From contig NC_089437.1 of the NCBI RefSeq assembly GCF_026210795.1, positions 682,001 to 746,000 on the forward strand: 64,000 nucleotides of DNA. The letters are read 5' to 3'. Under the pieces are notes generated by a model. It saw only the letters and a list, made by a program, of their open reading frames with translations. It searched no databases and was not told the DNA's origin. Positions within the stretch are counted from its first letter, which is position 1, and each line of letters starts with the position of its first letter. Positions 26,592 to 55,145 of the stretch are shown one piece after another. A program made the translations under genes and the position numbers. Source of the DNA: Rhizophagus irregularis. Its lineage: Eukaryota; Glomeromycota; Glomeromycetes; Glomerales; Glomeraceae.

Positions 26592-27666
26592 TAAACCGCG
26601 AACAAAAATGCTAATACCTTCGGCTCCGGATCTTTTTTTTTTTAAAGAAATAATGTTTTAAATGTTCTATTTTATATATAGTTCTGAAATATATTTTTAT
26701 GAGTACGAAATTATATAAATAAAATTTTATTTTTGTTAACATTTTTACTTGAATGAATGAATGTGTATATTACAATAAATCTATTCAATGATGATATTAG
26801 CGGCCTATTTTCATGAGAAATGAATAATTATACGATAAATATACGAGATAAAATATCTTTTTAGTTCAAAAATAAAGAACGTTCCTTTCTTTTCTAATTG
26901 TTTAATTGGAGATTTCCACCTAACTGTAACTTTCATTTAATAATGACAATAAAATTTTAATCATCATTCATTTAATAAAATTAATACATTTTCACTTTAC
27001 AAATAATTATTATTATCAGATAAGCCCATCTTTTGCCCAGTACTATATTTAAAGTTTAAAAATATTTTTATTTCTTTATAGGCTCAGGACATCGGGTCTC
27101 GGACGTTATATTAAGATACGTTATGTTAAATTTGAATAATTTTGTTAGTTGGCTTGGTCTTATGGCTAGCACAAATTTTTTCTAAACAAAAAAAATTCTT
27201 TACCCAATTTTGCTAGTGGTAGATGTTGATGTGCTTATCAAGTTTTTACAAGTTATAAACTTGCTTGACAAGGATTCCCATTTGAAAGAGACTGTCAATA
27301 ATAAACAATACAGTTTTTTTTTAATATTGTTGTTCTATTTGTTTTTTATGGACGTTCTGCAGTAAGTATTTATTCTGTGCATAGTGATTGATAAAAGATA
27401 TTTATTATTTTTTTTTAGAACCAATTTTGTATTTTATTGTTGATCCATAAAAAGCATGATAATCTCTTTTTGATTCTAACTTACATTTTTGTTATAGTCT
27501 GTTGATCTACAATTGCGTCATACAAATAAATTTAGTAATTTTCTTTATGACAGACATAGTTTGCTGATTTTCAGCTGCAGCATATGACATACATAGTATC
27601 AGATTAGTTAAATTTAGTAATCCTAAATGAATTCAAAAAGTTACATAAATTACTTGGCTATAAATT
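26592..27666. other. 3' flank of the peptide gene and LINE target site
   Basis: AATAAA-type signals occur near 26715-26722. No gene is seen from 26600 to 27656. The left copy of the LINE target duplication, GCTATAAATT, is at 27657-27666. Confidence 0.55.
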
Positions 27667-27844
27667 TTATTTTTATTTTTATTTTTAAAATATAGACTCG
27701 ACTGGAGTCGAACGCTAAATAAGAATAAACATGATCTAAAAGAACAATAAATTCTAAGCTAATGATAAACCCAACCTCTTGGGAGGAGCCCGAAGGGGTC
27801 ATCTTGCCTCTTATTCAATAGAACAATCGGGCATAACCGGGAGT

Positions 27845-30020
27845 CTAGAAAGTACTATCGAACGAAAAAGAAGAACAAAAAAAATTAAATTTAAAATTAC
27901 ATGAAGAAGAAAAATTATCTATATCTAACTCGGAACTACTAGGATGCCGGACAGAAGACAACCATCCACCAGAATGTAAAAAATTACATGTACACAAAAT
28001 CAACCACATCGGTAGATGCGGAAGGTGAAGAGGATGAGTAGATGGCGCCGTAGAGGTCCATGGGTGAAACGAACGGCTAGAAATACCATCTGAGGGTGAG
28101 GAATTCATCCTGGTCCTGGGATGAGAAAGATTATGTAATCCGTGATGAGAAGAAGAGGCAACTCTAGGTTGAGCAGTAGGTTGAATTAATTGTTGATCAC
28201 GAGATTTCTTTGGTTTTTTCCTTCGAAAATCACGTTTACATTTGGGTGTAATTCCATTGTGTTGTTCCCATAATTTCAATAAAGAACAGTGTTTAGGCCA
28301 TATTTCTTGATAGATGTGTTCATGAAATGATATTAAAAATTCCCATATAATTAAACGGGTAAGTTTATCATTAAATATAAAAGACCGGACAAAGTTATAA
28401 AGATCTTGTGAAATGAGTTGATGTATAATTAAATATATAGGATGATTATAAGAGTTCGAATCCGAGATTGGTGTTAGGAGTTCGAAATGATCGATGGATT
28501 GTGATATGAGGATGGGATTATATGAAGTGTTCTCCTCAAGGAGGCGTTGTAATATCCGTTTGTGTTCTACTAAAACTTTGTTAATGACAGGTAAAAGGTT
28601 TGAACATATTCCCAGATGTTCATTAGTATCTTGGTGATTGTTACAGACCGGACAAGGTATGTAATTATCAGGGTAAAGGTCAGGGTAATGTTTAGTAAGA
28701 ACGTCACCGCAAGGGAGAATATGATTAAGTGCTTTGATTTTAAAAGCGTTGTGCGATGATTTGGTAGAGCTACAAACGTCGGGCGTGGAATTAAATTGTA
28801 ACCACGCTCGGGTAAGAGGCCAATGTATTGAAGGTAAGGGAAATCTATCAAAGATAGGTGAAAGTGAAGGGTTACCCAAGAATCGATCAAAAGTATAAAC
28901 ATCTGTTAAATTATGACAAAATTTTCTAATGTCACGATCGATTGGTGCTATAGAAGCCCAGATAGGGGTCATTAGTGAGTCCGGTAAATTTGTAGGGTTG
29001 ATTTCATAGGGTGCGAGTTGGCGTGCTGCGTTAGCTAAACCATCTGCCATGTCGTTCCAATGGTCATTGGAGTGAGCTTTGACTTTGTGTAATCTTACAA
29101 TCAAGGATTTTTTCGTAATTAAGATATCAATCAAGCGCCACGCTAAATGGTTATTACATTTCAAAATTCTTCTTATAGAAGTTAATTTCTTCGTAACTAC
29201 GTGAAAAGTATGGATAACATTGAGCGAATCCGTGAAAACATCCAGTTCACTATAATCAGGTACTGCAATAATTGCCGTAAGTAAAGCATAAACTTCCGCT
29301 TTGGTAGAAGATGGATTAAAAGATAAAGCGCCTTTGTATGATGGCGGAGGAGGGCCTGAATTAGGAGTAGCATCAGAAGTTTCTATTCAGGCAAAACCCA
29401 TTTGAGTTTGAGTAGAAAAATTAACATCGAAACTAGTAAAAGAACCGTCAGTATAAAAAGTAAAATTTTTTCGTAACAGAAATTGTTTGGCTATATCTAA
29501 AAGTTGAATAATCAAGTCTCTATTTCCTATAAATATGTTATTAATGAAAAGAGAAGAAAAAATATTTAAATTTAAATTAATCGAATTATTAAATATTTCC
29601 GAGTTCACATTTAAGTATGAATCTAATGTGGATAAAATAAGAACCGTTGAGGGTAAAACATTGGGTGTAACTAATCTATGTTTACTAAATGTAAACGCTT
29701 GAGTACGAAGTGTATGTAAAGGTGTGACTGGAAAAATAAAAGTTTTTTCCAATTTTAAAAATTGTTTGTTGGGTATAAATTTTTTTGCATGAACATTAAA
29801 AAGAATCAAATGTGATATTAGGGAAACAATAATACATTTTGGACGTAGATCGCCACTGGTCAGAATAGTCCATTTCGGCAAAATTTTAAATTGCCGAATG
29901 TTGGACGAAATTTGGTCTGACCTTAGCCGATCAGTACCAAAAAAATCGGCAACTAATTTTATAGGCGATTTGCACCGTAACGCCTGCCACTCGCAATTAG
30001 AAATTGGCAAAGTTTCGGAA
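27845..30020 (-). pseudogene. LINE ORF2, 3' part: RNase H and C-terminal zinc knuckle
   Basis: The frame is open from the insertion boundary to 27845 except for one TGA at 29389-29387, inside MGFA(stop)IETS, where a Trp would fit (TGG to TGA). RNase H residues are visible: D in FYTDGSF, E in STKAEVYALL, D in VFTDSLNVIHT and D in HWNDMADGLANAA, preceded by LHKVKAHSND. About 150 residues later comes a zf-RVT-like knuckle CPVCNNHQDTNEHLGIC. The extreme C-terminus is Pro/Ser-rich. The ATG-less start is explained by the upstream insertion: the frame continues from 44247 on the far side of the Plavaka-like element. Confidence 0.85.
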
Positions 30021-30247
30021 TTAGTTAAAAAAATCGGCTGTACATATCAATAAAATTCGAACCTGCCATGCAAATGAAATTCGTCATAAACAATCGACTA
30101 TTCGTCTAAAAATCGATATTGATTTAAATTGCCGATTTGCAAAAATAAATAAAATCGACCATAATAATTTTGACGAAATTTAGCAAATTTAAGTTTTAAA
30201 ACAGCGATTTTATTTCGATTGATTTACCAATTATTTTAATTAAATCG

Positions 30248-30480
30248 CAAAAATTTCCTACAAAAATAGTAAAAATTTCCTACGAAAATAATACGAAAAT
30301 AATACTAAAATAATAAAAATTTCCTACGAAAATAATACGAAAATAATACTAAAATAATAAAAATTTCCTACGAAAATAATATGAAAATAATACTAAAATA
30401 ATAAAATTTCCTACGAAAATAATATGAAAATAATACGAAAATAATAAAAATTTCCTACGAAAATAATACGAAAATGATAA
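30248..30480. repeat. 44-bp tandem repeat, five copies
   Basis: Units of the form AAAAATTTCCTACGAAAATA followed by ATACGAAAATAATACTAAAATAAT, near the left end of the Plavaka-like element. Probably subterminal sequence of the element, without coding content. Confidence 0.75.
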
Positions 30481-32109
30481 AAAAATCCAATCCACAATTC
30501 CACAAAAAAACCCATAATTTTCAAAAAAAAAATCCAAAAAAAAACTGACGAATCAATCTAAAATTCGAAAAAAAGTTAGTATAACAAAAACTCAAAACAA
30601 AAATTAAAGTACAAATTTATACCATTTTTCTGTTTCATCTTCTGTTTCCGGCGATTCTTCCACTCCAATTGGTTCCGATTCTTCCACTCCAATTGGTTCC
30701 GATTCTTCCATTCCCGTTGGTTCCGAATCTTCTATTACCTCTATTTCGTTCATCTCCGCCAACACTTCCGCATCTTCCGCCATTATTAGATTATCCATCG
30801 TTTGAATCGGCGTCTCCGGCTCAGAAAAGTCAGTATCGGCCGGCGTATTCTGCTCCACATAGGTCCAATTTGGAGTACCTCGTGGATGACGAGAGATGAT
30901 ATTATATATCTCATCATCATAATTTCGCGTTCGTATCAGTTGTGCAGATTGAAGAGAGAAAGCGTGTTGGTCCAAGATATTTCGTAATAAATCTATTAAC
31001 TATTATTAGAAAAAAATCAATCCTATTACGAAAAAAATAAAACAAATAAAAAATAAAAAATAAAAATACGACAAATAAGTTATCGAACCTCTTCAGATCT
31101 CCAAGACGGATTATAAACATTGATATGTCTTTTACCATCTGGTTGCTCCTCATCCGATTCAGAATACTCTGGAGAGTGATATCGGTTGTCGCTTAAAACA
31201 TTCAAAAGTTCTTTTCGATCATAATTCTCCAGTTTTTCGTCATTTTTGTCGAAAAGCGATTTTGCGCCTTTAACTCGTCGTGCTTTTTTCTATATTTAAA
31301 GTTTTGACGAATGATGAGATTTTTTTTTTTTGAAATAATAAAGAAATTATTTACCTCATTTAACCGATTGTTTCGATGTAGACGACGATTATCTTTGTCT
31401 AAAGTGCCGCGTTGTTTATATAACAAACGCACTCTGCGATGTTTATGTAAAGCGGCAAGCCAAAACTTGACTTGCCTGTATCGTGGAGTATACCTTGGCT
31501 TCATCGCTTCAATTAATCGAGGTATAATCTGTCGAAGAATTTCATCATTTGACTCACTGCTAAACTTTTCATCGTATATTAATTCTAGTTCAATCGGAAA
31601 AGTTTTTAGAATCGTCTTCATCTCAGCCTAAATTGAACAAAATATCGGTTTAGCGAGCGTTAAAAGCATACATTGAAAGAGGAATTTTGGACGAACCCTA
31701 GCTTCTTCTTCATCTACTTCCATTTCATCTTCAGAATCGCGCACAAGATTTTTTCCTTTCCTACGCTTTGTTGGTCATTGATCCTCTTCAAATTCGATAT
31801 CTTGAAGGTCAGATGAATGTCGGTGATGCAAGCCGTCGTTTTCCTAACTAAGTATATTGTTATACGATTGTAATTGGCCAACATCTAGCCGTAGGTCTAT
31901 AGATGTCATCGGAATTCCCTAATTATGACATTTCGGAGTTACGACATATGTCGTAAATCATGCCGTAACCGTAATAAAATGCCGTAAATCGTAAATGCCG
32001 TAATTCCGTAATTTAATTTGATGCCGTAATGCCGTATTTTAATCTAGCGCCGTAATGCCGCAAATATATATGCCGTAAATATTTTTTTTAAAAAAAATGT
32101 TTACAGCGC

Positions 32110-32900
32110 ACCTTTTTTTTTAGGGACAGTTCTTTCTGAAATATCATTAACTTCTTTTTTTTATTTTTAGAAGTATTTTCTTATATTTCCCAGACTTCCT
32201 GTAGGTAAAGGTTTTTTTTTATTTACTTTTAGCAAATGATATTAACTAACTTCATTTCTTTTTCTTTGTATTTAGGAACAGTTCTTGTGGACTTCTTGTA
32301 CCTCCTAGTAAGTAGTAAAGGATTTTTTTTTTTTTGACATTTACTTTAGGAAACAACATTAACTTCGCTTTCTTTTTTCTTTTTTAGAAGCAGTTCTTGC
32401 AGGATTTCTTGGATTTTCTGGTAAGTGGAAAGAGGTTGTTTTTGATATTTACTGTCAAAAACAACAACTAAATTTATTTCTTTTTTTCAGAACAATTTTT
32501 GTGGACTTCTTGGACGACTTCATGGTTAAGTGGAGAGGATTTTTCTTAACATTTATATAATAATGTATGCAAAAAAAAACATGTCTAATAAAAAGTAACC
32601 CAACAATAGTACGTATATAAAAATGTGCTTATTTTTATATAATAATGTATGCAAAAAACACGTCTAATAAAAAGTAATCCAACAATAGAATGTATATAAA
32701 ATGTTTTTATTTTTATTTTTATTAAGACGTTAATTTGTACAAAATACAAAGAACTAAATAAGATACATGAAGAACTTTGTAGGTAGGGAATGGTTCAACC
32801 ATTGACGAATCTATGGTAAGCAGAGGAAAGTTTCTTGCATTTACTTTTAAGAAATATTATTAACTTTCATTCCTTCATTCTTTAGGAACATTATCTAGTT
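32110..32900. repeat. Degenerate ~110-bp tandem repeats in the hAT 5' region, plus an 80-bp duplication
   Basis: Recurring blocks of AGGAACAGTTCTTGTGGACT followed by TCTTGGAC..GTAAGTGG and T-rich spacers. A second duplication covers about 32555-32720 (AATGTATGCAAAAAA, then GTCTAATAAAAAGTAA, twice). They lie between the left terminal repeat and the transposase start, possibly in its promoter or 5' UTR. Confidence 0.6.
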
Positions 32901-33151
32901 ACCTGTTGGAATTGAACTAGCTTGGACAAATGTCTAAACCATTGATAAATAAAATTGAAACAAATCAAACAACTTAGAAATTTTTGAAATTTTTTATTAT
33001 TACGAAATAAAAAATATTTTGTGTTACATAGACTTCTAATCAGTTGATGTGTAACATGAATCACGATTTTGATAATCTTTTTTTTAACTTAAATAATCTT
33101 ACAAATTGTGTATTACGTTTTTGCTTTTACATAATCTTTGTGACTGTAAAA

Positions 33152-35532
33152 ATGGATTCAACAGATTTATTTGATAATCAAAATATTAGAGAAGTTAGAA
33201 GGGGTCGTAAAGAATCACATGTCTGGGATCATTATTTTAAAGAACCATTGGGTAGTGGGCATTACACAGCTAGATGTCATTACTGTAATCAAAACTGGTC
33301 TAGAGGAAAACCAGAAATTTTGAAGTCACATTTAGCATTGTATTGTAAAGATGTTCCACTATATATTAAAACAGAATATATGGAAATGCTGGCTGTTGGA
33401 ACTACATCTACTATGAATAGAAAACAAAAAACAGATTCTGATTCATCAGCTGAGCTTACTGCGGATAGAAAAGATAAAATCGATCAAGCACTTATACGAT
33501 TTTTTATTTGCTGTGGAATACCATTCTCAACCGTTGGTCATCCTTATTTTATTGATTTTGTTCAAAGTCTCTGTTTTGCTTATGGTCCTCCTAAAAGAAC
33601 AACCCTATCAACAACTTTCTTAAATCATGAAACTGCTATAATTTTAAATAAAATCAAAGAAGAACTCAAATATGAAAAAAATTTAACATTAGGTAATTTA
33701 TTTAATTACTGTATATCAAATTAATTAATATTTTTACATACATATTAATATTTTTAATTTTGTTATAGCGGTTGATGGATGGTGTGATCCTTTAGGAAGA
33801 TCTATTTATGCATTTATAATAATTACCCCAAGTAAAAGGCAATATATTCATACTTTGAAAGATACATCAATGGATTCTCATACTGGAACTTTTAATGCTA
33901 CTGAAATTGAAAAAGTTTTGACTTCAATTGGCCCAGAAAAATTTGCAGCTGTAGTATCAGATGCTGAATCAGCAATGCAAATGGCGAGAAGACTAATTAC
34001 TGAAAAGTACACCCATATTTTATCTATACGATGCATGGCACACCATTTGAATTTAGTTTCAAGTGATATTATTAAATTGGATTTTGCAAAAAACACATTA
34101 AAAAAATGCCAATCTATTATAACTTTTTTTAAAACATCATATCGTGCAGGTGCAAATCTCCAAAAAGATATTATTCAAACTTTAACAGAAGGAGGTGGCC
34201 TTAAGACATCAGTAAAAACAAGGTGGTCTACTGCATGGACTTGTTGTGACTCAATTATCCGTTTGGAAAATAATCTCAAAAATGTAAGTTAACAAATAAT
34301 AACATATTTAATAATAAACTAAAATTAATAATATTTATTTTTGGATTATAATTTAGGTTCTTGAAACTCAAACTGAAATTTTTATTAATGCAATAGCAAT
34401 AAAAAATCTTCTTCGAAATCGCCAGTTTTTTCAAGATGTTGAACAACTTCATACAATTCTTGCACCTGCTAAAAAAGCAATTCAAGCTGTTGAAGCTAAT
34501 TCGAGTAATATGGCATCAATTTTTTTGCAATTAATTCAGATGGCAGTTGAAATTAAAAAGATTTCAAATTATTTTGATCCAAATTTCAAAAAGAATTGTA
34601 TTAACATATTTAATAAACGTTGGGCACAGTTTGATACTGATACATATCTTGTTGCCTTTTTCCTCCATCCAAGATATAGAGGTAAAGTTGATTATTTTTC
34701 TAACTTATTTGTTAAATATAATGTATTTATTGTTCCTACTTTTCATATTAGACAAGAAATTTCAAGACAGTACATTTCGTCAAATGGCATTAACTGCTAT
34801 GAAAATTTGGTCAAAATTTGGTAGTAATAAAAGAAGTTGCAAAATTTTGCTATCACAACTTCGATCATATGGTGATAATGAACCACCTTATGATATGGAA
34901 TATACTGATGAATATGATACGCCTGAACTTTGGTGGTCAACATGTCGACAGCCAAATAATTATATTCAAAAATTAGCTTTAAAGTTATTTGCTATTACTC
35001 CTCATCAAGCTGCATGTGAACGAGCCTTTTCAGTATTAAATTGGATGATAGGAAAGCGGAGAACAAGGTATTTGTTTAATTTTAATAACAGTAATAATAT
35101 AATATTAATTTATTAATAATTTTTTTTTTTTTTAGGTTAGATATTGATCGCCTCCAATCCATGGCTCAAATGCACTCCTACTATATTACAAATGCAAAAT
35201 CAGAGTTAAAATTTTCTAGTAGTGATTTAAGTGAAAATGAGCTTGAAACTGCATTACAAGAAATTACTACAGCTATGATTAATAATGATGATATTTTCAT
35301 TGATGATGATGATATTGTTTTGGATGATGAAAGTATTGATTTGAATGATGATGATGCTAATACTAATGATTTGATTATGGAAAATATCATGAATTTAGAT
35401 AGTTTTAACGAACAAAATGATGATAATTCGAATTCAAATATTTCGGACCAACAACCTGATGAATCTATAAATTATGAGGATTCAAATATTGATTTTGAAG
35501 CAATATTTGATGAAGAATCGGAAACAGATTAG
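33152..35532 (+). CDS. hAT-family transposase, intact, 697 residues, five exons
   Basis: Exons are 33152-33692, 33769-34283, 34357-34681, 34752-35067 and 35136-35532, summing to 698 codons with the stop. The start MDSTDLFDNQ is preferred over an upstream ATG at 33044 because the region before it is low complexity. Residues ~25-70 form a BED-type zinc finger (WDHYFKEPLGSGHYTARCHY, ..HLALYC). The catalytic region shows a first D in AVDGWCDPLG, a second D in AAVVSDAESAM, and C..H in CMAHHLNLV. The hATC dimerisation region is TPHQAACERAFSVLNWMIGK near residue 560. The tail is Asp/Asn-rich. It should cut and paste the element by binding the terminal and subterminal repeats in the nucleus. Intact gene and exact ends suggest recent or current activity. 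Confidence 0.92.
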
Positions 35533-36179
35533 TAAACAATGTAAATGAAATTACATTATAATTAGTATTAAATAACATTATAAAACATGATAATTAGTAA
35601 ATAAACATTATAATTATTAGTGAATAAAATTAATTATATAAATAAACATTATATTTAGTTGATTACATTTAGTAAATAAAAAAAAAGAATAAGAAACGAA
35701 GTTAAATGTCATTTCTTAAAGTAAATTTCAAAGAAAATCCTTTTCCACTTAGTGATATCGTTCCTAAAAAAAAGAGAGAATTTGAAGTTTCTTAAAAATA
35801 AATGTAAATGAATTATTTTTTAATTATCTATTTACGCCATGTAAATTTACGACATTACGGCACCAAATTAAATTATGGCATTACGGCATCAAATTAAATT
35901 ACGGCATTACGGCATTTACGATTTGCGGCTTTTTTTTACGGTGATATGGCACATGCCGTAACCGTAAAAATAATTCCGACGGCATCTATACGTAGGTCAC
36001 GCAACTCGCCATTTGCATTATCGAGTTGCCGATGAGATCCCCCAATTCCCCCTGTCATCAATTTACAGAGTTGCCACATCGAACGGGCATTCTCATGGTC
36101 GAACGAACGAATAAACGAACAAATAAACAAATAAACGAACAAGCAATTAATCAACAACATAATTAACAAACAACAAATT

Positions 36180-37100
36180 TAACGAACAACATACAACAAC
36201 ATTCTTGGTTCACAAAATAAATAGCGTTAGTAATATAAAACGTTGAACGATATAAAATAAAATTAACTTCTCTAAATTTTCCTCAAATTATATCCACTTT
36301 TACCTTTAATTTCAAACTTCGATAGCTTTCGCTACGAATTATTACTTTTCAAAAAACATATATTTAATTCATCTTAAAATTTTCACTTGTTTAATTAAAA
36401 TTAATTAAGCGAACATTAATTAAAGTTTAGGGCGAACCTATTACCTTTAATTAATATTAAACTTCATTAACAAATAATTAAATGAAACTTATATTTTTAT
36501 TGAGTTCTGTGGATGAGAACTGTGGAATTACTTTGAATTCCGCTCTCTATTTATACAATTTTTATGCTACTTTCTATTTTATCTATATACTATCTTTGAT
36601 ATTCTTTTTACATATTATCTTTGAACTATCTTTCTAATATACTATCTATAGTTTAAATACGCTATCTTTTAATATGCTATCTTTTATATATATATATTAT
36701 CTTTTATAATATCTTTGTATTATCTTTTTATATTATCTTTTATATTATCTTATGTTCTTTAATCTTTCTGACATTATTTTATATGTTCTTTCAATCCGCT
36801 TTATGTGTTTTGCTTATAATCTATCTTTTGTGGCTTATAATTATTCTTTCTAATCGTTCTTATTGTTGTTAAAGATTGCTAAGCCGCAATTGATCGACTC
36901 TATTTATCCTATTGGTTCTTTGTCAATCATTCAACAAATATTACATCATGTAGATCATTACTCTTCCTAAATGTTTATCCTTTTCAGCTAATTATTTATC
37001 CATCTATGCCAATTCATAATTAATTTGTTCGTTCTTAACATTTGGCAATTACATTTGGTAGTTGAATTTTATCATCTTTTCATGCTTGATATTCGACCGT
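36180..37100. other. Unresolved stretch within the companion gene; TATCTTT-rich
   Basis: Expected to hold introns and missing exons of the minus-strand companion gene, but no reliable exon was found. About 36540-36770 is a degenerate (TATCTTTTATAT)-type repeat that may have expanded in an intron. Confidence 0.45.
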
Positions 37101-38421
37101 TTACACCGATTTAATTCGTCGATTCTTCTCCGTAAGTAGGCATTTTCTTCTCGGAGATCATACGTTTCTAAAAAAATGTTAAAGTCGACCAGAACTCTAA
37201 AATGAATACAAAAGTCAATTGTAGCTCACCATTTACATCTCTAGTCCAATTACTACTATAAGGTTCACGTATAATTGGCGTTGATTCTCTCCTATATGGT
37301 TCGGCGATGCGTACATTGCTCCTATACGGTTCGGCAGTGCGTACATTGCTCCTATACGGTTCAGTGGTATGTGTAATGGGCGTTAATTCCCTATGTATAT
37401 TGCTCCTATACGGTTCGCCTGTGCGTGTAATGGGCGTTAATTCCCTATGTACATTGCTCCTATATGGTTCGGCTGTGCGTGTAATGGGCATTAATTCCCT
37501 ATGTACGGTTACATTACGAATCGGTGGTACCATCCTGCTTTGTTGTGAGTACAAGCTGGATGGTACCACTAAGCGAAATGGCCCATTATCTTCCGAAGCT
37601 TCTGGTATCGACGTTTGTTTTTGAGTTTTGGTAGAACCGGAACCGGAAGCTGCAGATTCCTGTATCGACGTTTGTTTTTGAGTTTTGGTAGAACTGGAAC
37701 TGGAAGCTGCGGATTCCTGTATCGACGTTTGTTTTTAAGTTTTGGTAGTACCGGAACCGGAAGCTGCGGATTGTTGTTTCGACGCTTGTTTTTGAGTTTT
37801 GGTAGTACTGGAACCGGAAGCTGCGGATTCCTGTTTTGACGCTTGTTTTTGAGTTTTGGTAGAACTGGAACCGGAAGCTGCGGATTCCTGTATCGATGTT
37901 TGTTTTTGAGTTTTGGTAGAAATGGAACCGGAAGCTGCGGATTGTTGTTTCAACGCTTGTTTTTGAGTTTTGGTAGAACTGGAACCGGAAGCTGCAGATT
38001 GTTGTTTCGATATCGACGTTTGTTTGGGAGAATCGGAACTTACAAATTCCTGTGAAGAAGTTTGTTTGTGAGACTCTTGACGACTTTTTTTGACACTTTT
38101 TTTTCCAGATCGTTTCATTCTTTATAGAGATTTTAATAAACAGAAGAATAGTAAAATTAGTAAATAACATAGTACTTTCTTTCAAAATGACGAAAAATAT
38201 TGTTCGATTTATATAAAAGTTGATCAATATAAAAATGTATTGCAGATTTTATAAAAATTACGAGAATTGTTTATCGAAAAAATAAAATTATTTTTGCGAA
38301 AAAAATTCGATTGATGGAGCTTTATAAATTCAAAATAAGCTTTCCTGGGAAAAAGTTTATTTGATAAAAATAAAACCGAAATTTGATTTATAAGTTAATT
38401 AATCATTAAAAAAAGTCTAAT

Positions 38422-38935
38422 CGAAATTAAACTTTTATTAAATCAATTGCTAACGGATCAATTTAACCGAAATTTTCAAATTAAAAAAATTTCTCATGAT
38501 TGAAAATTTAATTAAATCGACTAAATCAAAATCTCGAAATTAAACTTTTATTAAATCAATTGCTAACGGATCAATTTAACTGAAATTTTCAAATTAAAAA
38601 AATTTCTCATGATTGAAAATTTAATTAAATCGACTAAATCAAAATCTCGAAATTAAACTTTTATTAAATCAATTGCTAACGGATCAATTTAACCGAAATT
38701 TTCAAATTAAAAAAATTTCTCATGATTGAAAATTTAATTAAATCGACTAAATCAAAATCTCGAAATTAAACTTTTATTAAATCAATTGCTAACAGATCAA
38801 TTTAACCGAAATTTTCAAATTAAAAAAATTTCTCATGATTGAAAATTTAATTAAATCGACTAAATCAAAATCTCGAAATTAAACTTTTATTAAATCAATT
38901 GCTAACGGATCAATTTAACCGAAATTTTCAAATTA
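38422..38935. repeat. 113-bp tandem repeat (4.5 copies) between the divergent genes
   Basis: Copies start at 38422, 38535, 38648, 38761 and 38874, an exact 113-bp period, with almost no divergence (CGAAATTAAACTTTTATTAA, then ATCAATTGCTAACGGATCAA). The array fills the space between the companion gene start (38118) and the transposase start (39055), so it probably sits in a shared promoter and may hold regulator or transposase sites. Confidence 0.85.
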
Positions 38936-39165
38936 AAAAAAAATTTCATAAAATTTTAATTTTCAAGAGAAAAATTGACTTCATTTGTCAAAATTTCGTT
39001 AAATTTTAAAGTACATATTAATTATAACCGATTCTTTATCAAATTTTATAAAACATGACGAGAAGAAGATCGATTAATCAAATTATGGGTTCGGAAAGGA
39101 TAGCAAACCGACTATCTTCTAGAAGGTTTAGCAAAAAAAGAACCAAAGTCCCTTGTTATTGTGAC

Positions 39166-43500: not shown

Positions 43501-44246
43501 TATTATTTTCATATTGATGATGAAGATGAGAGCTGTAACGTCGAGTTGTGGAAATCTGAATTTTATGATAAAAGCCGCGATTGTATTATTCCTGTACATA
43601 ATATCCTTTGTCGATTTATACCATCAAAATATTGAATTTCTACTCGGAGTAATGCTATTGAATATTTGGCGATTAATCCAATTAATCGCAAACTCCAAAT
43701 TCGTTAATAATTAAGTGTTTTTAGTAAAAATCAGCCAAATTATTATTATTTTTTTAAAAAAAAAAAAATTTCATAATTACTTGTCGAGAGACACGTTTAT
43801 TAGACGAAATTTCATTTTTACGAAATTTTTACGAAATTTCCAAATAAAGATTCTTTTGTAGTATTTTTATTATAATTTCTTGACGAAAGACGAGTTGAAA
43901 TTCATTTTTACAATTAAAATTTTTCGTTAATGATTATGCACTGAATATAAACAATGTAAACAATTATAAATTCAAATTAAAAAAGAACATATTTTTTTGA
44001 TTTTTTCCATTTGGCAAAAATGTGTCGATTTATATGACCAATCGGCAAAATTTTACTGAACGATCTCAAGTAACCATTTTTCGTATAACAATCAGTATAA
44101 GTCGATTTTTCACCAAAAGACTGAACGAGGTTTCGTTTAACAATCAGTATCAGTCGATTTGTGATTGATTTTACCGATTTTTACCATTGGTCAAAAAATG
44201 TGACGAATCACATGACCAATCAGCAAAATTTATGCCGAAAGCTCTT

Positions 44247-45620
44247 AACGGTCGAAAGTTTTAATTTCGACCAGTGCGCCACTAAAAGGTACACTATGAC
44301 CACATTGTCCAGGACAAGGGCGCAAAATGGGGGTGACTTTTTTGGATGTTAAATTGGATCTAGTGTCAGCGTCTACAACTGGAATATAATGTGTTCGATA
44401 AGTAAGGCTAGTACTGTAAAGGTCATTTTGTTGTTCAATCGTCTTGCCGTATAATTCACATTAGTGTACAAGGTCCCAAGAAATAGTCCATTCATTCTTA
44501 GGGCGGTAATTAGATGTTTTTCGTACAGGAGGAGACATGGAGTCGTATCGGGCTGGTGGGGAAACATTTAAATTTTGTAAAAGGTGGCGTGAATTTTCGG
44601 CCGTAATAATGTTGGATTTTTCAAGTTGTTGAAACCACTTGGGTGTAGGTCCTTTAAAATTTGCCTTAGGGTTTTGTTTTTTGACATCTTTCCAGGTGCT
44701 TAAGTAAGAACCATTGATGGACGTTAACTGGTCCATGAACATTATGCGTTTTTTCCGCAAGCTTTGGAGGTCGCTACTTGATAAAGAGTGTAAAAACTTA
44801 TTTGAATTAAAATATGATACTATAGAATTACCACCACCGGAAACAGATGTATTACAGTGTGGTAAAAAAGTAATATAAAAATTATTAAATAAACGTAATT
44901 GTCTAGTTAAAAGGGATTGGTAATTTGAAGAAATAGGATTAGATAAATCTTTGGACGTCGGAAAATTAGGAATCCAAAAATCATATTGTGTATTTAAAAT
45001 TTTTTGCAAACCAATAGTAGAAAACATAGGGGTATTAAAAATAACATTAACTATTGATATATGTAAATAAAATTGATTATAAAAAAAACTATTGATAGAC
45101 GGAAATAGTTTGTTATGAATAATGTTATTATGTGTAGAAATTGGTAATTTTAAATGTTGTTTAAAAAGTTTTTTAACTGGGGCTAATAAAGAATCACATT
45201 GTGAGCGCGTGAAGATAGTAAATTGGTTAATATACTCTAATTTGGGTAATAATACTTTGTTAATAATGTAAATAAGGTGGTCATGGGTTATTTTCTTGAA
45301 GCGCATTGTATACGCGAAATGATTAACTATTTTTTTAATCTTATTTAACGTTGGCGTATGTGAATTAAATGTGTTGATGTAGATTCCAAGAATTCGATTG
45401 GACGAGGCACGCGGCGCTGTTCTAATCGTAATAAATTTGGAAGGGGTGACCTGGAATTGTAAATCCTTATTACAAAATTTAGGGTTATTAGTAAGGATAG
45501 TGTATTTGTCATGATTAATAGTAATGTTCGCCATATCGTAAAAGGAATTCGCTATTTGGAGATTTGATTCCAATTGTGATTTGGAAGATGCGAACCAACT
45601 GGTGTCGTCAAGGTAACCCA
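44247..45620 (-). pseudogene. LINE ORF2, middle part: reverse transcriptase palm/thumb
   Basis: It starts at the insertion boundary with VGYLDDTSWFASSKSQLESN, whose YLDD is the catalytic Y-x-D-D motif of reverse transcriptase. KLEYINQFTIF and LGIYINTFNSH follow in the thumb and connection region. The frame stops at 44463-44461 (WDLVH(stop)CELYG), where Gln would fit, and continues with PILRPCPGQCGHSVPF to FDR at the next insertion boundary. The protein is the direct continuation of the segment at 49408-52279 and leads into the RNase H part at 30020-27845. Confidence 0.85.
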
Positions 45621-45740
45621 CATCAGGAAATTTTATAGCGTGAAAAATTGCGTAAGTTTACGATTTTGTAAGTTTACGAAAGTTTATGGCATAATATTTC
45701 GAAAAATTTCAAAATATTACGTAAGTTTACAATTTCGTAA

Positions 45741-46290
45741 GATTTATGTGATATTACGGTTAAAATATTACGTGAGTTTTCAATATCGTAAGATTTACGC
45801 AATATTACGGTCAAAATATTCTGCAAATTTACGAAACTGTAAACCTGCGTAATATTACGGTTGAAATATTTCGAAAATTTACGAAACTGTAAACCTGCGT
45901 AATATTACGGTTGAAATATTTCGAAAATTTACGAAACTGTAAACCTGCGTAATATTACGGTTAAAATATTTCGAAAATTTACGAAACTGTAAACCTGCGT
46001 AATATTACGGTTGAAATATTTCGAAAATTTACGAAACTGTAAACCTGCGTAATATTACGGTTGAAATATTTCGAAAATTTACGAAACTGTAAACCTGCGT
46101 AATATTACGGTTAAAATATTTCGAAAATTTACGAAACTGTAAACCTGCGTAATATTACGGTCAAAATATTCTGCAAATTTACGAAACTGTAAACCTGCGT
46201 AATATTACGGTTGAAATATTTCGAAAATTTACGAAACTGTAAACCTGCGTAATATTACGGTTGAAATATTTCGAAAATTTACGAGATTGT
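45741..46290. repeat. 50-bp tandem repeat, about 11 copies
   Basis: Perfect or near-perfect 50-bp units (AACCTGCGTAATATTACGGT, TGAAATATTTCGAAAATTTA, CGAAACTGTA). Each contains AATATT and TTCGAA palindromes. The array lies just inside the left terminal repeat, and diverged versions (ACGAAATATTACG) are scattered inside the right end (48925-49370), which suggests subterminal binding sites. Confidence 0.9.
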
Positions 46291-46667
46291 AAACTGCATA
46301 TGCAGTAGAATGTATACAAGGGGCATGTGATACTATTGAATAATCAAAAATAATATAAACACCTTTTCTTTTATATAAACACCTTTTTTTTAAGTTTGGG
46401 AAAGCAAATTTATTTTTATTTACGAATTTTTTATTATTTACAATTTTTATGTTAAAAATTAAAGTAAATTCTAATTTTTATTATAACTTAATAAAAAAAA
46501 TACACATTTGATACTTGTTCGCTACTATTTTATAAAATAGTACCCAGGCTGTACGGCGTGGACGTCAGTATCAGTCACAGCCCAAAAAAAACGTGAGTCT
46601 CCAGCCGATATTTGGTACGGACTGGGCCTAGCTACTCACTTAATAAATAATAAAAAAATAAAAATAA

Positions 46668-47292
46668 TTATCTTCTTCTACGATACGTAGGTAAGTTTCT
46701 CCTTGCCCTACGATCATCACGCGTGACTAAAATTGATCAAATTTATCAAATTTAAAACATGAACGTAAATATTAATTATAAATTTTATTATAGTATAATT
46801 ACCCGGCCTCTCCCAAAATCTCGTTCTAAATTCGCGATAATATCTTGCGCCGGTACGCGTCCACAGCCGCCGCCCAGGGTTACCATTACGATAAAGGACA
46901 TAGTTCTAAATATCAAAATCAGTTTGAATATTCGGTAAATACATTTAATTTATATGAATGTAATGTTATTTATTTACTTACATGGTAATCCCTGACGAGG
47001 TTCCTCCACTTTTGGCTGCACTGTTGCCCGGAAACCCTCGTTCGAAATATTCTATTTATTCTGATTCAATTAAATGGATTGGTTAATTTGAATTTAAATT
47101 CTTTCTTAAAGAAATTATAGATATTAGTCATATGAACCTATTGGCAACAGAGTCCCAAAAATCTTGGCGGCTTCTACCATTAATATTGTGGTAGGCGCGG
47201 TTTCTGTCTCGGCGTATGTCAACAAGTTCGTCCATCATAGCCCAGTTCCAATGGACGTTATAGTGGGAACGACGACGTGTGTGGCGAGGCAT
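46668..47292 (-). CDS. Myb/SANT-like DNA-binding protein, 128 residues, four exons
   Basis: Found by splicing; no single long ORF marks it. Exons are 47292-47138, 47051-46982, 46905-46803 and 46726-46668; introns are 76-86 nt with GT..AG ends, and the sum is 129 codons with the stop. The N-terminus is basic (MPRHTRRRSHYN). Residues ~14-80 match a trihelix/SANT-like layout with its tryptophans: VHWNWAMMDELVDIRRDRN, then GRSRQDFWDSVANRIF, then GQQCSQKWRNLVRDY. The C-terminus is Arg-rich (RDDRRARRNLPTYRRRR). The coding part is GC-richer than its surroundings. Such proteins accompany transposases in some DNA transposon families and bind element ends, so it probably binds this element's repeats in the nucleus. 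That role is inferred. Confidence 0.78.
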
Positions 47293-47299
47293 TATTAGT

Positions 47300-48920
47300 A
47301 ATTTGATTTTGGGATGAGTAAAAATTTGAAAGAAAGTCGTAAAATGTCACTTTAAATAAAATTTGAACAATACCTCTTTGGTTTGATTTTATTTCTCGTT
47401 TCAATTAAAATTTAATTTATTAGACTTTTCATCATTAAACATATTAATTAAATCTCATGCGGATATGGATTATCTAAATATAAATATCATGATTCTAAAT
47501 ATAAATATAAATCACTTAATTTATTTTAATTTTTTTTTAAAAAAAAAAATCTTAGTTTGATTTCAATTAAAAATAATTAAAAATCATGTACATGATTTCA
47601 ATTAAAAATAATTAAAAATCATGTACATGTTTTCAATTAAAAATAATTAAAAATCATGTACATGTTTTGGTTATTTAAATATAAATATCAATATATTATA
47701 TTTAAAAATAAACCAATTTATTATTAGCACATTCTATTGAATTTTAAAAAAATCAATTTTTTTTTTAAAAAAAAATCATCAATATATCATATTTAAAAAT
47801 AAAACAATTATATTCTGATTAAATATTTTGCGTACATTTCTTAAAAAAATCATAAAAAAAAATCTTGTACGTCATACATGCAATTACTAAATATCATCCC
47901 CTTGTGATAAATAAAAAATTACGCAACACAAATTCAACACAAACTCAACACAAATTTAACAAATTTAACGAAATTTGGCCAAAATTAATAATTTTTTACC
48001 AGAATTATTAACACAAATTGAACACAAATTGAACACAAATTTCAGTCACGATTTATTTATGTCACACCCGCTATACGATGTACATGATTTCTGGCCAATC
48101 AAAATTAGGCTGATTCTTGCATGTGATTTAATCATTTAATCATTTAATCATGCACGCGTTTTTGTCTTATTTATTTTTGTTTCTTATTTCTTTATTCTTT
48201 TGTTCAATATTTTTAAATTTTTTGTCTCTTCTTTCTATTATTTCTTTAATTATATACAATATATTTACATATATTTCATAATTTATTGCTTTGCAGGTAT
48301 AGAAATATTTGTTTATTAATACTAATTATTTTCATTTTTTTTTACCTCTTTGTTATTTTGTATCGTAATACTAACAATAATATCCATGTTTCCTTTATTC
48401 CTTTTTACTTGTACTTTAATACTAACGATACTAACAATACTAACAACATGTTTATTTTTTCCTTTCTCTTTATTTCTTTATTCTTTTGTTCAATTACTTT
48501 GCAGGTATAGAAATATTTATTTATTAATACTAATTATTTTAATATTAACGCGTTTTTTTTTTACCTCTTTGTTACTTTATGTCGTAATACTAACAATACT
48601 ATCTACGTTTCCTTTATTTCTTTTTACTTGTACTTTAATACTAACGATAATATCCATGTTTCTTTTACTCCTTTTACTGTTTCTTTAACTCTTTTTACCT
48701 TAATACTAACAATAATAACAATATTTCTTTTATCTTTATATCTAATACTAACGTTACTATAGCTGTTTCTCTTCTTTTTACGTCTAATAATATTGTTACT
48801 CTACTCTTTCTTTTTTTACTTTTATGTATTCTGTATATATTAATAAATACTTGTAATTTTTTATGGTTTAATAAAATTATATCTAATAAAACATACATTA
48901 TATAAACTTATAGTACAGAA
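47300..48920. other. Non-coding interior of the Myb element, with internal duplications
   Basis: A 37-bp unit (TTTCAATTAAAAATAATTAA, then AAATCATGTACATG) is repeated three times at about 47561-47665. A ~205-bp segment starting TTTGCAGGTATAGAAATATT (48288) is duplicated in tandem (second copy from ~48495). Open frames of 60-112 codons here are Ile/Leu/Phe low complexity. No transposase was found. Confidence 0.6.
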
Positions 48921-49407
48921 AATGAAGTATTATTTATCGAAATATTTTGAAATATTACGAAATATTAAGTTGTGTAAAATCACAGAATATTACGAATCGT
49001 CAAATTATGGAACATTACGCATCATAGAATTTCGAAATATTTTAAAAAGTTGCGAAGTATTACGCAGTAAAATTACGGAATATTACGAATCGTAAAATTA
49101 CGAAGCCTTGCATACAGTAATATTACGAAATATTTTAAAAAGTTACAAAATATTACGCTTACGCAAACTTGCGGCGGGTCTGAAAACTTACGAAATATTA
49201 TGTAAAATTACAAAATATTGCGAACCGCAAAATTACGGAATATTACAAATCGTAAAATTACAAAGCTTTGCATATCGTAATATTTCGAAATATTTTAAAA
49301 AGTTACAAAATATTACGCTTACGCAAACTTGCGGCGGGTCTGGAAGCTTACGAAATATTATGATGTGTAAACTTGCGCAACTTTTCGCACTATATAATTT
49401 CCTGATG

Positions 49408-52279
49408 CACTACTGATGATGAATAATCTATCTGTAGGTCTGTGTCCAGTTGGTATATATTATTAATTTTGTTGATATGGGTAATGTGTAAATTTTCGGT
49501 TAATTGTGATAAGTGTGAGAACATAGGATCATAATAAATAATCCATAAAATCGGACTAATGACTTCGCCTTAGTCTATGCCTTGAATTACATCATAGTCA
49601 GCGGATAAGCCAAAAGGTAAAATAACATTATTTTTCCGATCACTAAATAAAGATATTAAAAGAGTGGTAATTTTATCAGAAAAGTGGAGGCGTTCTAAAG
49701 CTAATTTCAATAAAGATAGATTAACTCTATCATAGGCCTTGCTAAGGTCTTGTGGACCAATCCAGAGCTGTTTTTTGTCCTTGTAAGCAGATTCAATTAT
49801 ATGTTGGATAACTTGTAATGGTTGTAACGTTGATTGTCCCGTCAAATCCGCCCAATTGTTTTCATTAATCAGGTTGTACGTCGTAAGCGTAGTGTTAATT
49901 CTTTGTGTCAAAATTTTAACGAATAATTTTCTGAACGTTTCCAACAAGACTATAGGTCGTGTGTTTTCTATTTTGCAGTCCCAAGCCTTCGGTTTGGGTA
50001 TAGGAAAAGAAATGCATGTAACCAATCCCGTGGGTAAATTTGGACCTGCATAATATAGTTAAAAAATTGTTTAATATATTCTCTGAAATCTTGATGTGTA
50101 TGTTTGATATCTTCGTATGTAATGCCAGAGATGCCAGCGGCTTTATTATTTGGAAGTGATGAAATAACTTGGGATAATTCTTCAATTGAGAAATCCTCTG
50201 ATAATGAATTCATATGTTTACAATTACGATTATTGATGGGTTCATAGGTCGATCTCCAATATAGCGGGAGGTCTTGAATTGACATATATTTTTTAACATC
50301 ATTAATTTCATTAAGGTCTTTTCCTAAACGTTGAAAATGTAAATTAGATTGTTCTGCTATAATATGTGGATTATTAGTAAATTGAAATTGATTAGTTTGT
50401 TGATTGTAGTAATGTAAACGATCTAAGGTTATCTTTTGAGGTTTGCATTCAAGGATACTATTAATCATCCTTTTTTGATCGTGGATTAAATTATTATTCC
50501 TATCGTTGATATATTTATTAATATTATTGATAGTCCATAAATCTTCTTCTTTTTTGTGTAAAACAATAGTTACTCGTAAAAGGCTTTGTAAATCTTTTTT
50601 GACATCGAATATATTATCGATCGTCAAATTAACTGGTAACCAAATAGTACGTTTGGCATTGAAGTGAACATCTATGACCAGAATTTGTTTTCGTAATGTA
50701 CTCCAAGGTTTCCAATAATCTTTCCATTTATCGTGATCACCTCTTATTCTATTAATTTTAATGTTAGAGAATTTTCGTAAAATCGTACGAAGTGTGAGTA
50801 TTTTATTATTATTTTGTCTTAGATAAAGGGGACGATCATGTTTCGTATATTTCTTATGTGTAGAAAAGGGAATACATTTTTCTTTGGTTTGGTTAATAAT
50901 ATCTTTAATATTAGATCAATAGAATTCAATTTGTTGTTCCGGTGTTAAATCCGGTGAGGTCGAATTGTTAATATGTTGTCGATATATAATACCGTTGGTA
51001 AGTTTGTAATTAGACCAGGATTCTGTGGTCATAGAACGGTATTTATAGTGGATTTGAGGATTGGTATTAGGTTTGTACGTAGGTGATTTTTCTAAGCTTT
51101 TCCTAGAGCTATTGAATTTGTTTCTAAAGTAGTCTTGAGTCAAGTAACAACTTAGAGCCTTATGATCTGTAGTAAAAGGTCTTCAGAAACGCTATGAGTA
51201 TAAGCGTAAAAACTATAATGAAGAATGTTGGACGAAGTGAATATATAATCAATACGAGATTGTATATCTAGTCCTTCGTTTCTATTGGAACTATATGTTG
51301 GTGATGGACGTTCGTAAAAGAATTTGAGTAAGTCTTTGAGGCCAAAATTTTTAAAGATTGTTTTAATTTCTCGTCTCCAAATGGGATAATGATTGGATTT
51401 TTTCAATTTGTCAAAGCTAATATTTAAATCTCCTAAAACTATACATTCAAAATGATTATGCATAGCGTTGGTTAAAATATTTTCAATTTCCTTATAACAT
51501 TTAATAATTAATTCTTTGTCATCGATGGCGTTAGCTGGTAAGTAACAACATATAAATTTGATATAATGGTTGCCCTTAAAGCACAGGTCTACCGTTAAGA
51601 TACGACCAAAAAAAGTGTTGGTTTTAATGATATGTTTTTGCAGCTGATCTGTGATTATCATAGAGACTCCACTGCCTTTGGTATATCCTTTGTTATCTGT
51701 ATAAACATGAATATTTTGTTTAGTATTGTCATTATTCAATGACGGGAGTAAGTGTGTTGAGTGTATTGTTTTATTTAAGTCCATGTCTATATTGGTATAT
51801 TGATGGAGACCGGTTTCGGTTAAGATAAGTATATCGTAATTGTTAAGTGTAAAAAAATGGAGGATATCATTTAATTTATTATTAAATCCTCCTTGAATAT
51901 TAATTGTACCAAACTTATGGTAATCAATAAATTGTGTACGTAATTGGGGAGATGATGGTATAGGAGTGTCGTGTAGTTGAGAGGTAGACGCCATCCCTAT
52001 TGTATCATTATCGTCGAGTAGGTTATATTCGATATAATTTAACATGTTTTCATCTTCTTCATTACGAGGTTCACGAATGTAATTTCGTGAATTTGATGTA
52101 TATGTATCATTGTTGTATGGGGTGTGGAAATTTTGATTGATATTTTTGTGATTTTGGGGTTTTTTAAGATTTTTTTGTGTTTTTGTATTATTGTTATATT
52201 TAGAATAAGAATATTGTAAAACGGGTTCAAAAGGCTGATTTTCGAGGTCAGCCGGGGATTTCAAATTGGTGTATTCCAT
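49408..52279 (-). pseudogene. LINE ORF2, 5' part: AP-type endonuclease and reverse transcriptase start
   Basis: ORF2 starts at MEYTNLKSPADLENQPFEPV (52279). The endonuclease domain shows ILILTETGLHQ, YLPANAIDDKE, CIVLGDLNISFD and SRIDYIFTSS, with the final SDH-type motif as FTTDHKALSCY after a one-base frameshift near 51175. The reverse transcriptase begins with LPNNKAAGISGITYEDIKH, then after another shift near 50000 NTRPIVLLETFRKLFVKILT and LWIGPQDLSKAYDRVNLSL. A TAA at 49572-49570 (QGID(stop)GEV) sits where Gln is expected. The sequence runs to IDYSSSVV at the boundary with the Myb element, directly before the YLDD motif found at 45620. Confidence 0.85.
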
Positions 52280-52411
52280 AAAAAAAATTATATAAAAAAG
52301 TATCAATATGTGAATCGAAATATTTAAGCCGTTAAAAACTAAATGGGTAAATCCGAAAAGTATATCCAAAAGAAAGAAAAGGAGGTGAAAGTATTAATGG
52401 TAGACACGTAA

Positions 52412-54651
52412 TCAACGCGTCGCATTAAACTGCGGGAGGAGGTTAAGAGGGTTATAAGATTTAACTGAGAACTTAGTCTCAGTTGGTGTTGTGTTCGATA
52501 GTTCGTCAATGATTCCTTCAAAGACGGCACCGTCTGATATAACGGTATCATTGGGGGCGTCAGTGTCTTCATCAGTTGCTAAGGGCTGTTCACTGTCTTC
52601 CGCTGTGATGTTTCCTTGTTTATTGTTTCTTAGATTATATCTAGTTTTTGCTGCCCTATACGAAGATTGTTCGTATGGTGATGTTCTTTTTGATGATTTG
52701 ATGGAGCGATCTTTAGATTGTGCGATCTTTTCTTGACTAAGCAGGTTAATGTTAGTCGTGAGATGTTGGATAATTGTGTCATACTTGTCGAGTCTGGTTG
52801 TTATATCATGGAGTGATGAACTCATTAAATTATGGTTGTGGTGGATATCGGCGATAGTACTATCGACTTTAGATTTTCCTTCTTGAAGTGTCTTGACACT
52901 ATCTAAAAGTGATTGGACTTGTTGTTCCAATTGGGTAATTCTGTGTTCTGAATTATTGGTGGTTGGCATTTGAGGATTGTCCAAGTGCAGGGCAATATAG
53001 GAATTGTCATATTTATAATTTTTGCTATTATTGCTAGGTTTGTGTGGTTGTATGGTTGTTTGTTTTGACGTGGATATAACAAGCTGCCTGATTGTGGATT
53101 TTTGTTATTGTAATTGCGTGCTAGTGGTTGATTAGACTTATAATTTTGTGACGTCGTGTTCAAACTCTTATTTGCGTTTAGAGTTATGACGTGGTTATAT
53201 CTGGCTCTGTGGTTTTCACTGATTGTAATTTTTTCCTTGTTACGATTAATAAATCATTTTTTGAAGAGTTTGCGGTTAGATTGGTCTGTATCGAAATTTT
53301 TGTCATCACAAACTCTTGTCTCGTGAAGTGGTAATCCACAAGTGTTACACATTTTGAGTGATAGGTGACCCGGTAGGACATGGAGGTTATAATCTTCAAA
53401 TAGTGAAGAAGCGCCATTAATCGCGTCTACTGGGTAATTGTCCGGTGATACGTAAATATAGGCATTTTTCATAGTTGAGTGTTTGGTGGTTTGTGTAAAG
53501 GTACAAGTTCATCCATAGACGTGCTTGATAAGTGGTTCAATATCCTTGGCTGTGGTGTTGAGTGAGAGTCCAGTAATTTTAAAGTAGCAACTGGTACGTT
53601 TTTTATATTCGGGGTCGTCAGGGTTTCCAGGTAAAATCCTTACTACGAAGTTCTCGATTTCGAGGCTCCAATAGTTTTCTTTCATAAAATAATCGTATGC
53701 TGATTGTTTGTCAAATTGGACAATAAGCTATTTGTAAGCTGGTTTTATGAAAATAGGACGTCCGCGATTGTTGCGGTTGGGAATTTTTCTTGGAGGTTTT
53801 TTAATTTCCTTGTGTTCAAGGACGTTACTGCCAGTTTTTACGGCAAGGTGTTTGATAAGCATGGATGTATCGTAGTTGTATGGGATATCCATAATTTTTA
53901 TAACGGCCTGGTCTAAATTGGCGAATTTTCGTTCCATTAATGTGTTGATAGCCTCATTGGTGAGTTCATAAATTTTTACTTGTTTGAGGTTGTCAGGACT
54001 TTTTTCGATATATTGATCGAGTGAGTCACGTGTTCTGAAGTGAATAGTAAAGTATCAATATGTGGATGTTGTATTAACATCAAATCTAAAAGCATTACTG
54101 TCTTTGATAAATGACATCTTTATTAGATTGATAATTTCGTTGTTAGAAAGTTTCGGTGGGAAACTATCTCTAGGAATAAATCCTTTGTGTGCTTTGTTTG
54201 AAGCTTGTGGTGTCTGTTTAAAAATATCATTTAGCACCGTGATTTGTATCGGATTAGGAGTATTTGTTTGTGTGGCTGATTGTGTTTCTGGTAATTTCCC
54301 CTTATCGGGGTTAGGTTCAATAGGATCTTCCTCCATAAAAGTCAAATTTTCAGTGATTGGTGTTTGCGTGTGAATATCATTTTCCTGTGAGTCACGTGAT
54401 GTAAGTTCGATTTCGCTGTGCGAGAGAATATGAGTGGGAGAGGTGGATGATGCCTCTTCTATAGTCGTATCCGTTATAGTATTGTTAACAGTTTGAGTAG
54501 AACCTGCAGGTTGACTGAAAGTCATATTGTTTCGTTTATTGGGAGAAGAGTATGTGAAATATATGTCTTCTTCGTTAGTAACAGGATGATAGGATTTTTC
54601 TAAATTTTTTAAGAATTTTTTCGAAAATTTTTTTCCTATAGCAAAACTCAT
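52412..54651 (-). pseudogene. LINE ORF1: RRM-like, zinc-knuckle and coiled-coil protein
   Basis: Likely start MSFAIGKKFSKKFLKNLEKS (54651). After a Ser/Thr-rich linker there is an RRM-like segment (FRFDVNTTSTY(stop)YFTIHFRTRDS, AVIKIMDIPYNYDTSMLIKH), then a CCHC-like knuckle MCNTCGLPLHETRVCDD, a Gln/Asn-rich region, and a C-terminal coiled coil (HRITQLEQQVQSLLDSVKTL). In-frame stops near 54057, 53731, 53515 and 53255 and a shift near 53000 break it. The stop at 52412 lies ~130 bp before the ORF2 start. ORF1 proteins of this class coat LINE RNA. Confidence 0.8.
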
Positions 54652-54803
54652 ATGATAATGTTTCAGGAAGAACGTAGAGACCAAAATTGGTGAAAAAATT
54701 GACACTTGTCTATAAAGAAATGTGTTTTTTAGTGAAAATTTCTTCTGTGAATTTTTGGTTTTTAACGATCGTCAGGAAGAGTTTTTGGTAAATGGGTTCC
54801 TTA

Positions 54804-55145
54804 GCTATAAATTATTACGGTAATATACTAAAAATCAACTTAAATTTAAAGTCACATGACTAAAATCTCTTCTTTTGATTGGTTAATTTATAATTAACCA
54901 AATTAACGGTTAAGTCTATACAATACATTTAAAATTTTAGAAATAGCAAATAAAAATTTTTTGTGATAAAATTGAGAATAAAAATTTGTGAAACTTCAAT
55001 TCAAAGAGTCATGTTTCAGTAATCTGTTTGTATGCTTTCTCCTGCAGGTACATGCAGAGATTACGAGACATTTGCAATAAATAATGAAATCTTAACGAGT
55101 TTTGCGCTCGGAAAAAATTTTTTTTTTTTTTTCAATAAATAAGAT
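54804..55145. other. Right LINE target duplication and short intergenic region
   Basis: GCTATAAATT at 54804-54813 is the right target duplication. The remainder, upstream of the channel-like gene, is AT-rich, with a T-run at about 55119-55132 just before the start codon region. Confidence 0.6.

Follow-up and report, generated by a model that had tools for sequence, protein, structure and literature searches.

Six nested transposable elements in a 27-kb site of the Rhizophagus irregularis genome

The 64,000-nucleotide stretch of Rhizophagus irregularis DNA analysed here (the window) contains, at 27657-54813 (~27 kb), a nested stack of transposable elements, which is real and nearly all of whose joints are backed by copies in the genome. 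Six members make up the stack: a LINE, an EnSpm/CACTA element, a Plavaka derivative, two hAT elements (hAT1 and hAT2) and a solo Ty3/Gypsy LTR. The LINE hosts the EnSpm/CACTA element and the Plavaka derivative, and the EnSpm/CACTA element in turn hosts hAT1, hAT2 and the solo LTR. An earlier note on the same sequence had counted five elements; its nesting order, with a LINE hosting two elements of which one hosts the hATs, holds, but its labels for the two inserts in the LINE do not, and the solo LTR at 36033-37105 had been overlooked. The window is low in GC, and copies of EnSpm and Plavaka are abundant in the genome; according to passages of PMC11075540, strains of this species average 147 Mb and Plavaka is prevalent in several of them. 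The features are as follows (TSD, target-site duplication; TIR, terminal inverted repeat).

27657-27666, no strand: first copy of the LINE TSD, GCTATAAATT
27667-29853, minus strand: LINE 3' segment, with RNase H and A-rich tail
29854-44276, plus strand: EnSpm/CACTA element, 14.4 kb, earlier called "Plavaka-like"; ends CACTGGTC...GACCAGTG; TSD CGC at 29851-29853 and 44277-44279
31898-35990, plus strand: hAT1, with a DUF659 exon; TSD CGTAGGTC at 31890 and 35991; TIR TATAGATG
36033-37105, minus strand (taken from the pol of a full-length relative on C7): solo Ty3/Gypsy LTR, TG...CA; TSD CCGA at 36029-36032 and 37106-37109
39166-40598, no strand: hAT2, non-autonomous; TSD ATTGTGAC at 39158 and 40599; TIR TAAGGATG
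44277-45620, minus strand: LINE middle segment, reverse transcriptase from GYLDD onward
45621-49407, minus strand: non-autonomous Plavaka derivative, earlier called the "Myb element"; ends CATCAGGAAATT...AATTTCCTGATG; TSD CA at 45619-45620 and 49408-49409
46801-47292, minus strand: Myb/SANT gene with introns (PF13837), within the Plavaka derivative
49408-54803, minus strand: LINE 5' segment, with upstream ORF pieces, endonuclease (PF03372) and the N-terminal part of the reverse transcriptase (PF00078)
54804-54813, no strand: second copy of the LINE TSD, GCTATAAATT

The host is a LINE of the APE type, in which a profile search found PF03372 (1.1e-9), PF00078 (2.2e-7) and, for RNase H, PF00075 (7.8e-9). 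Its A-rich repeat tail and its 10-bp TSD, the latter taken from the window copy alone, fit this type. On the 3' side most other copies begin at about 27665. On the 5' side 21 rows of matches reach 54773-54787, and the last 16 bp before the 5' duplication (54787 onward), which have no match in other LINE copies, are perhaps extra or variable 5' bases; this 5' end is the weakest point of the stack reconstruction. Just beyond it lies a short repeat (54836-54913) that is 82-91% identical to 18 further rows.

The chance of matching flank pairs was estimated from 200,000 random position pairs, within the window only. A match of at least 10 bp had a probability of 1.6e-4 and one of 8 bp 3.4e-4, and the values rose to 0.013 for 4 bp, 0.04 for 3 bp and 0.12 for 2 bp. 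Because chance matches of this kind are frequent, the 2-, 3- and 4-bp TSDs say little by themselves, and their case is made by family ends and empty sites. The 10-bp and the two 8-bp duplications reported earlier each occur exactly twice on the plus strand of the window by an exact-string check.

The 14.4-kb insert at 29854-44276 has CAC..GTG ends and a 3-bp duplication, which together form the signature of EnSpm in passages of PMC12730594. The Transposase_21 profile matched the related copy L021 at 9.7e-10, above the cut-off, and the window copy at 5.1e-6, below it. PF18759, the transposase domain found in full-length Plavaka elements, was found neither in three L021 proteins at E 0.05 nor in four pieces of the window copy at 0.001. 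The former Plavaka label is thus ruled out by the Transposase_21 match, the CAC..GTG ends and the missing PF18759, and the insert is an EnSpm/CACTA element, with which it shares ends, 3-bp TSD and transposase and from which it shows no basic difference; hAT2 breaks its transposase, which is split into more pieces than that of L021. Two tandem arrays within the element, of 57-bp units at 37597-38067 and 113-bp units at 38421-38941, are also present in copies L021 and L022.

Genome copies place the ends of this element closely. At the left end, 37 of the 41 non-self rows are element copies that stop at query positions 206-209 (window 29852-29855, query position 207 being window 29854); the remaining four comprise two LINE copies, matching from 203-204 to the end of the query, and two minor second matches. 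The right end at 44276 is reached by L021, whose own TSD is TTT, while the L022 match stops at 43797 and its right end is absent from the fetched stretch. Excision of the element with one CGC rejoins the LINE frame VPFSG-DLRPK, and the site is empty in three LINE copies (L023, L024 and L025), all fetched copies running straight through. An AA junction with a restored FDRSETLP frame, proposed earlier for this joint, gives way to these ends. The SETLP frame (29854-30046, open on the minus strand) was considered as a LINE junction and rejected; it belongs to EnSpm sequence, as the same 37 of 41 rows indicate.

The second insert in the LINE has CATCA..TGATG ends (CATCAGG) and a 2-bp TSD, as expected of Plavaka; PlavakaB elements are described in passages of PMC12730594 with the same ends and duplications of 2 or 3 bp. 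Seven of eight other copies fetched have TSDs as well (CA, AT, AA, TA, TA, TA and AA), and the far end of the eighth (L028) lies outside the fetched stretch. At 45621, all 39 non-self rows (40 scored) stop at or just past the element end (query 280-293), and the right end at 49407 is found in five Plavaka copies. When the insert is excised, the CA duplication is resolved and the LINE frame SSVV-GYLDD is rejoined, so that the insert sits right at the YxDD motif of reverse transcriptase. Of the 21 rows at this site two are self; among the other 19, 11 extend over 282 bp or more of the 300 bp (75-93% identity), four cross with at least 30 bp on each side, two overlap the junction by a few bases and two stop before it. 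The search for LINE copies free of the inserts, as the earlier note had proposed, therefore finds them at both sites. One of the four crossing rows belongs to a LINE copy (L024) in which an unrelated insertion of ~0.9 kb lies 25 bp from the Plavaka point, beside the YLDD codons.

Full-length relatives explain the structure of this insert. Two 9.7-kb Plavakas, 98.5% alike, lie at C1:5544300-5554500 (L034 and L026) and C8:895450-906500 (L031 and L035). The 3.8-kb window copy has both ends in common with them and aligns to 2.4 kb at their start (93-96%) and to 1.3 kb at their end (98%), so that ~6 kb including the transposase is missing. No transposase was seen in the window element itself; among the full-length copies, C1 has a frame with a PF18759 match of 2.2e-24. 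The earlier name "Myb-carrying element" was right as to its gene, since the spliced protein matches PF13837 at 1e-8, and wrong as to the element, which is a deletion derivative of Plavaka. A single-exon Pfam search for Myb gave nothing at 0.05, and the best matches of the protein among solved structures were plant GT-1 (E 0.012 and 0.015). The gene is abundant in the genome: its first exon has at least 108 matching rows among the matches listed, self included, and membership in Plavaka was checked for part of these. In the full-length elements the Myb frame is shifted in C1, and not every exon string was found in C8.

Within the EnSpm/CACTA element, hAT1 and hAT2 share 8-bp TSDs and short TIRs with known hAT elements. 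An exon of hAT1 matches DUF659 (2.1e-18), a domain linked to hAT transposases. Its left end is precise, four rows (93-99%) and two weaker ones beginning exactly at 31898, and 8-bp TSDs flank two of three fetched copies, the third being unmatched by the pattern. For hAT2, 12 non-self rows start at 39159-39166 and stop at 40598-40605, and three of four fetched copies have 8-bp TSDs, with the fourth again unmatched by the pattern. Apart from the EnSpm frame entering from the right, the frames of at least 60 aa in hAT2 measure only 63-129 aa, and the longest of its own has no Pfam match at 0.001. Since hAT2 differs from typical hATs in having no recognisable transposase, it is non-autonomous.

EnSpm copies without the hATs, the other empty sites that the earlier note had suggested looking for, also exist. 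At the hAT1 site, 21 EnSpm rows out of 41 (two self) cross, and another copy is split into two rows. At the hAT2 site, 25 of 29 rows (two self) cross, 24 of them over all 300 bp; of the remaining two, one is the second piece of the partly crossing copy and one falls short of the site. hAT2 interrupts the EnSpm transposase frame in its Cys-rich N-terminal part, and excision of hAT2 rejoins PCYCD-KCNGK, a stretch that L021 reads uninterrupted. At the hAT1 site, removal rejoins no long reading frame.

The solo LTR was detected where EnSpm copies stop near query position 185, at about which point the matches of 16 further rows first begin; both L021 and L022 align without the stretch up to 37106. 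Among 40 scored candidates of 386, 34 non-self rows span all 1068 bp queried (36034-37101), and several same-strand pairs lie 7.5-10.7 kb apart. The six LTRs fetched share the end GACCGTTTACA. Four-base duplications flank three of five other insertions (a C7 pair, ACGT; L047, ACGT; L046, GCGG), and none is visible at L043 and L048, for each of which one LTR was fetched. The C7 element (L049), enclosed by a same-strand LTR pair, has its interior in Gypsy order, with a gag-like frame (PF03732, below cut-off), protease, reverse transcriptase (RVT_1), RNase H (RNaseH) and then integrase (rve). The window LTR accordingly shares with Ty3/Gypsy solo LTRs its TG..CA ends and a family with same-strand LTR pairs; its full-length relatives differ in carrying an additional P-loop domain.

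To order the insertions, the private divergence of the window copies was calculated from Jukes-Cantor triplets, with one triplet each for the LINE and EnSpm and with six LTRs aligned. The hosts gave 0.045 (LINE) and 0.0075 (EnSpm), the Plavaka derivative 0.0007-0.0025 and hAT1 0.0015-0.0020. The values of 0.0063-0.0099 for hAT2 and 0.018-0.036 for the LTR equal or exceed that of the EnSpm host, and both are upper bounds, as nearer relatives may have been lost or not sampled. The natural reading is that the LINE is oldest and that hAT1 and the Plavaka derivative are youngest. hAT2 and the LTR appear no younger than their host, which tells against a simple clock, and strict dating by private divergence was dropped. 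All that nesting proves is that each passenger is younger than the lineage to which its host copy belongs. Of the chronology in the earlier note, the youth of the inserts relative to their host-copy lineages survives; the full order does not, and nesting leaves the order of EnSpm and Plavaka unfixed.

We put the probability of the following overall scenario at about 95%. The joints, the families and the empty sites behind it are shown. A LINE of ~8.9 kb with endonuclease and RNase H inserted on the minus strand, and its RT/RNase-H ORF was later struck by two DNA transposons, the EnSpm/CACTA element and an internally deleted Plavaka. The latter appears to have kept its ends and the Myb gene and lost its transposase; being without one, it would have to rely on transposase from full-length Plavakas for its movement. 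The EnSpm copy received two hATs and one Gypsy retrotransposon, and we infer that recombination between its LTRs later reduced the Gypsy element to a solo LTR.

When the passengers arrived relative to the landing of EnSpm is a separate matter. EnSpm elements are cut-and-paste transposons, and passengers may therefore predate the landing in the LINE. A variant in which EnSpm picked up the hATs and the LTR at another site and entered the LINE already loaded draws on this mode of movement and on the private divergence of the LTR and hAT2, which is no lower than that of the EnSpm copy. We consider it unlikely: no listed EnSpm copy has these inserts, with 21 hAT1 and 25 hAT2 sites empty, and a disrupted 14.4-kb element would presumably require transposase from outside. 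Assemblies tend to fail in repeats, and the stack might on that ground be suspected as an artefact. This is highly improbable, given that the TSD length at every joint of the inserts matches that of other copies of the same family, that excision restores the LINE and EnSpm transposase frames at the very bases that form the ends of unrelated copies too, and that the assembly consists of 32 contigs for 146.7 Mb. The idea that the inserts are regular components of the LINE or EnSpm family has practically no chance of being true, being refuted by the uninterrupted copies of both, and nothing was found in its support.

Successive insertion into the LINE and EnSpm thus remains our reading. As such the stack is an ordinary instance of repeated insertion, nested transposons being commonplace, and no description of it was found in titles, abstracts and some passages of the literature on nesting. 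It illustrates nested insertion in a repeat-rich genome at unusually good resolution, and is useful as an annotation test case that shows how a label can go to the wrong element. Two leads give it wider value: one is a Plavaka family with a Myb/SANT gene, the other Gypsy elements carrying a P-loop domain.

The first lead concerns a Plavaka family that would be the source of copies without transposase. It shares with PlavakaB (passages of PMC12730594) the CATCA..TGATG ends, the 2-bp TSD and, in full-length copies, the Plavaka transposase, and differs in carrying a Myb/SANT gene and, in the window copy, in the missing transposase. That paper uses "Myb" twice, both times for Nuwa/Harbinger, and the Plavaka cargo there is TET/JBP; no published description of a Myb gene in Plavaka was found among titles, abstracts and some passages.

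The second lead comes from the full-length Gypsy relatives of the window LTR.

L049 (C7), 6386-7048: P-loop domain, also in L050, L051 and L052

In L049 this domain of 200 aa follows RNase H in the same 706-aa frame, ahead of the integrase frame. The order RT-RNase H, P-loop domain, integrase recurs in the three other copies; the domain is fused to RNase H in three of the four (L049, L050, L052), whereas L051 has it fused to integrase. Thymidylate_kin matches all four copies (as isolated domain or frame), always below cut-off (0.00043; 5.3e-5, 0.00022 and 9.7e-5), and is outscored by AAA-type models in L050 (2.1e-5) and L051 (5.8e-6); cobW lies narrowly above its own cut-off in L050, and in whole-frame searches Thymidylate_kin falls below 0.001 in L050 only. 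Searches of PDB sequences returned FtsY for the most part, matched over the P-loop alone (0.0011 at best, reached with the profile), and thymidylate kinases scored no better than 0.23. In NCBIfam a dTMP kinase model came first, at 0.00022, its 20.7 bits lying below the cut-off of 193. The Pfam results leave the identity of the domain ambiguous. A nucleotide kinase is the favoured and probable reading because the GVDGxGK and LDKSPY.EY stretches, which we take to resemble kinase motifs, are conserved.

A protein search with the domain gave 151 matches genome-wide, those listed having 53 to 100% identity and mostly no stop. For L049 and L052, the only unsaturated pair, dN was 0.059 and dS 0.73 (dN/dS about 0.08); the other five of the six pairs have dS of at least 1.5 and are saturated. 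The yn00 method returned a value for one pair of the six. The domain thus appears to be under purifying selection. Somewhat short of even odds, in our estimate, is the proposal that one Gypsy group carries a captured, selected and probably (d)NMP-kinase-like P-loop domain, perhaps for dNTP supply, and that a Plavaka lineage has its own Myb/SANT gene. If true, the domain would perhaps provide dNTPs to reverse transcription in settings with low pools, and Gypsy elements with a kinase-like domain would allow a test of how nucleotide supply bears on retrotransposition. Fungal Gypsy elements carry dUTPase at varied places (passages of PMC2864245); the word "kinase" is absent from the main text of that paper and of PMC5408684. 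Titles and abstracts found in our search include no such P-loop domain in a retrotransposon, which leaves its absence from the literature unproven.

Apart from the stack, arrays of a 108-bp (36-codon) repeat occur near both ends of the window, at 4579-5894 and 63392-63998; we take these repeats to be Sel1-like.
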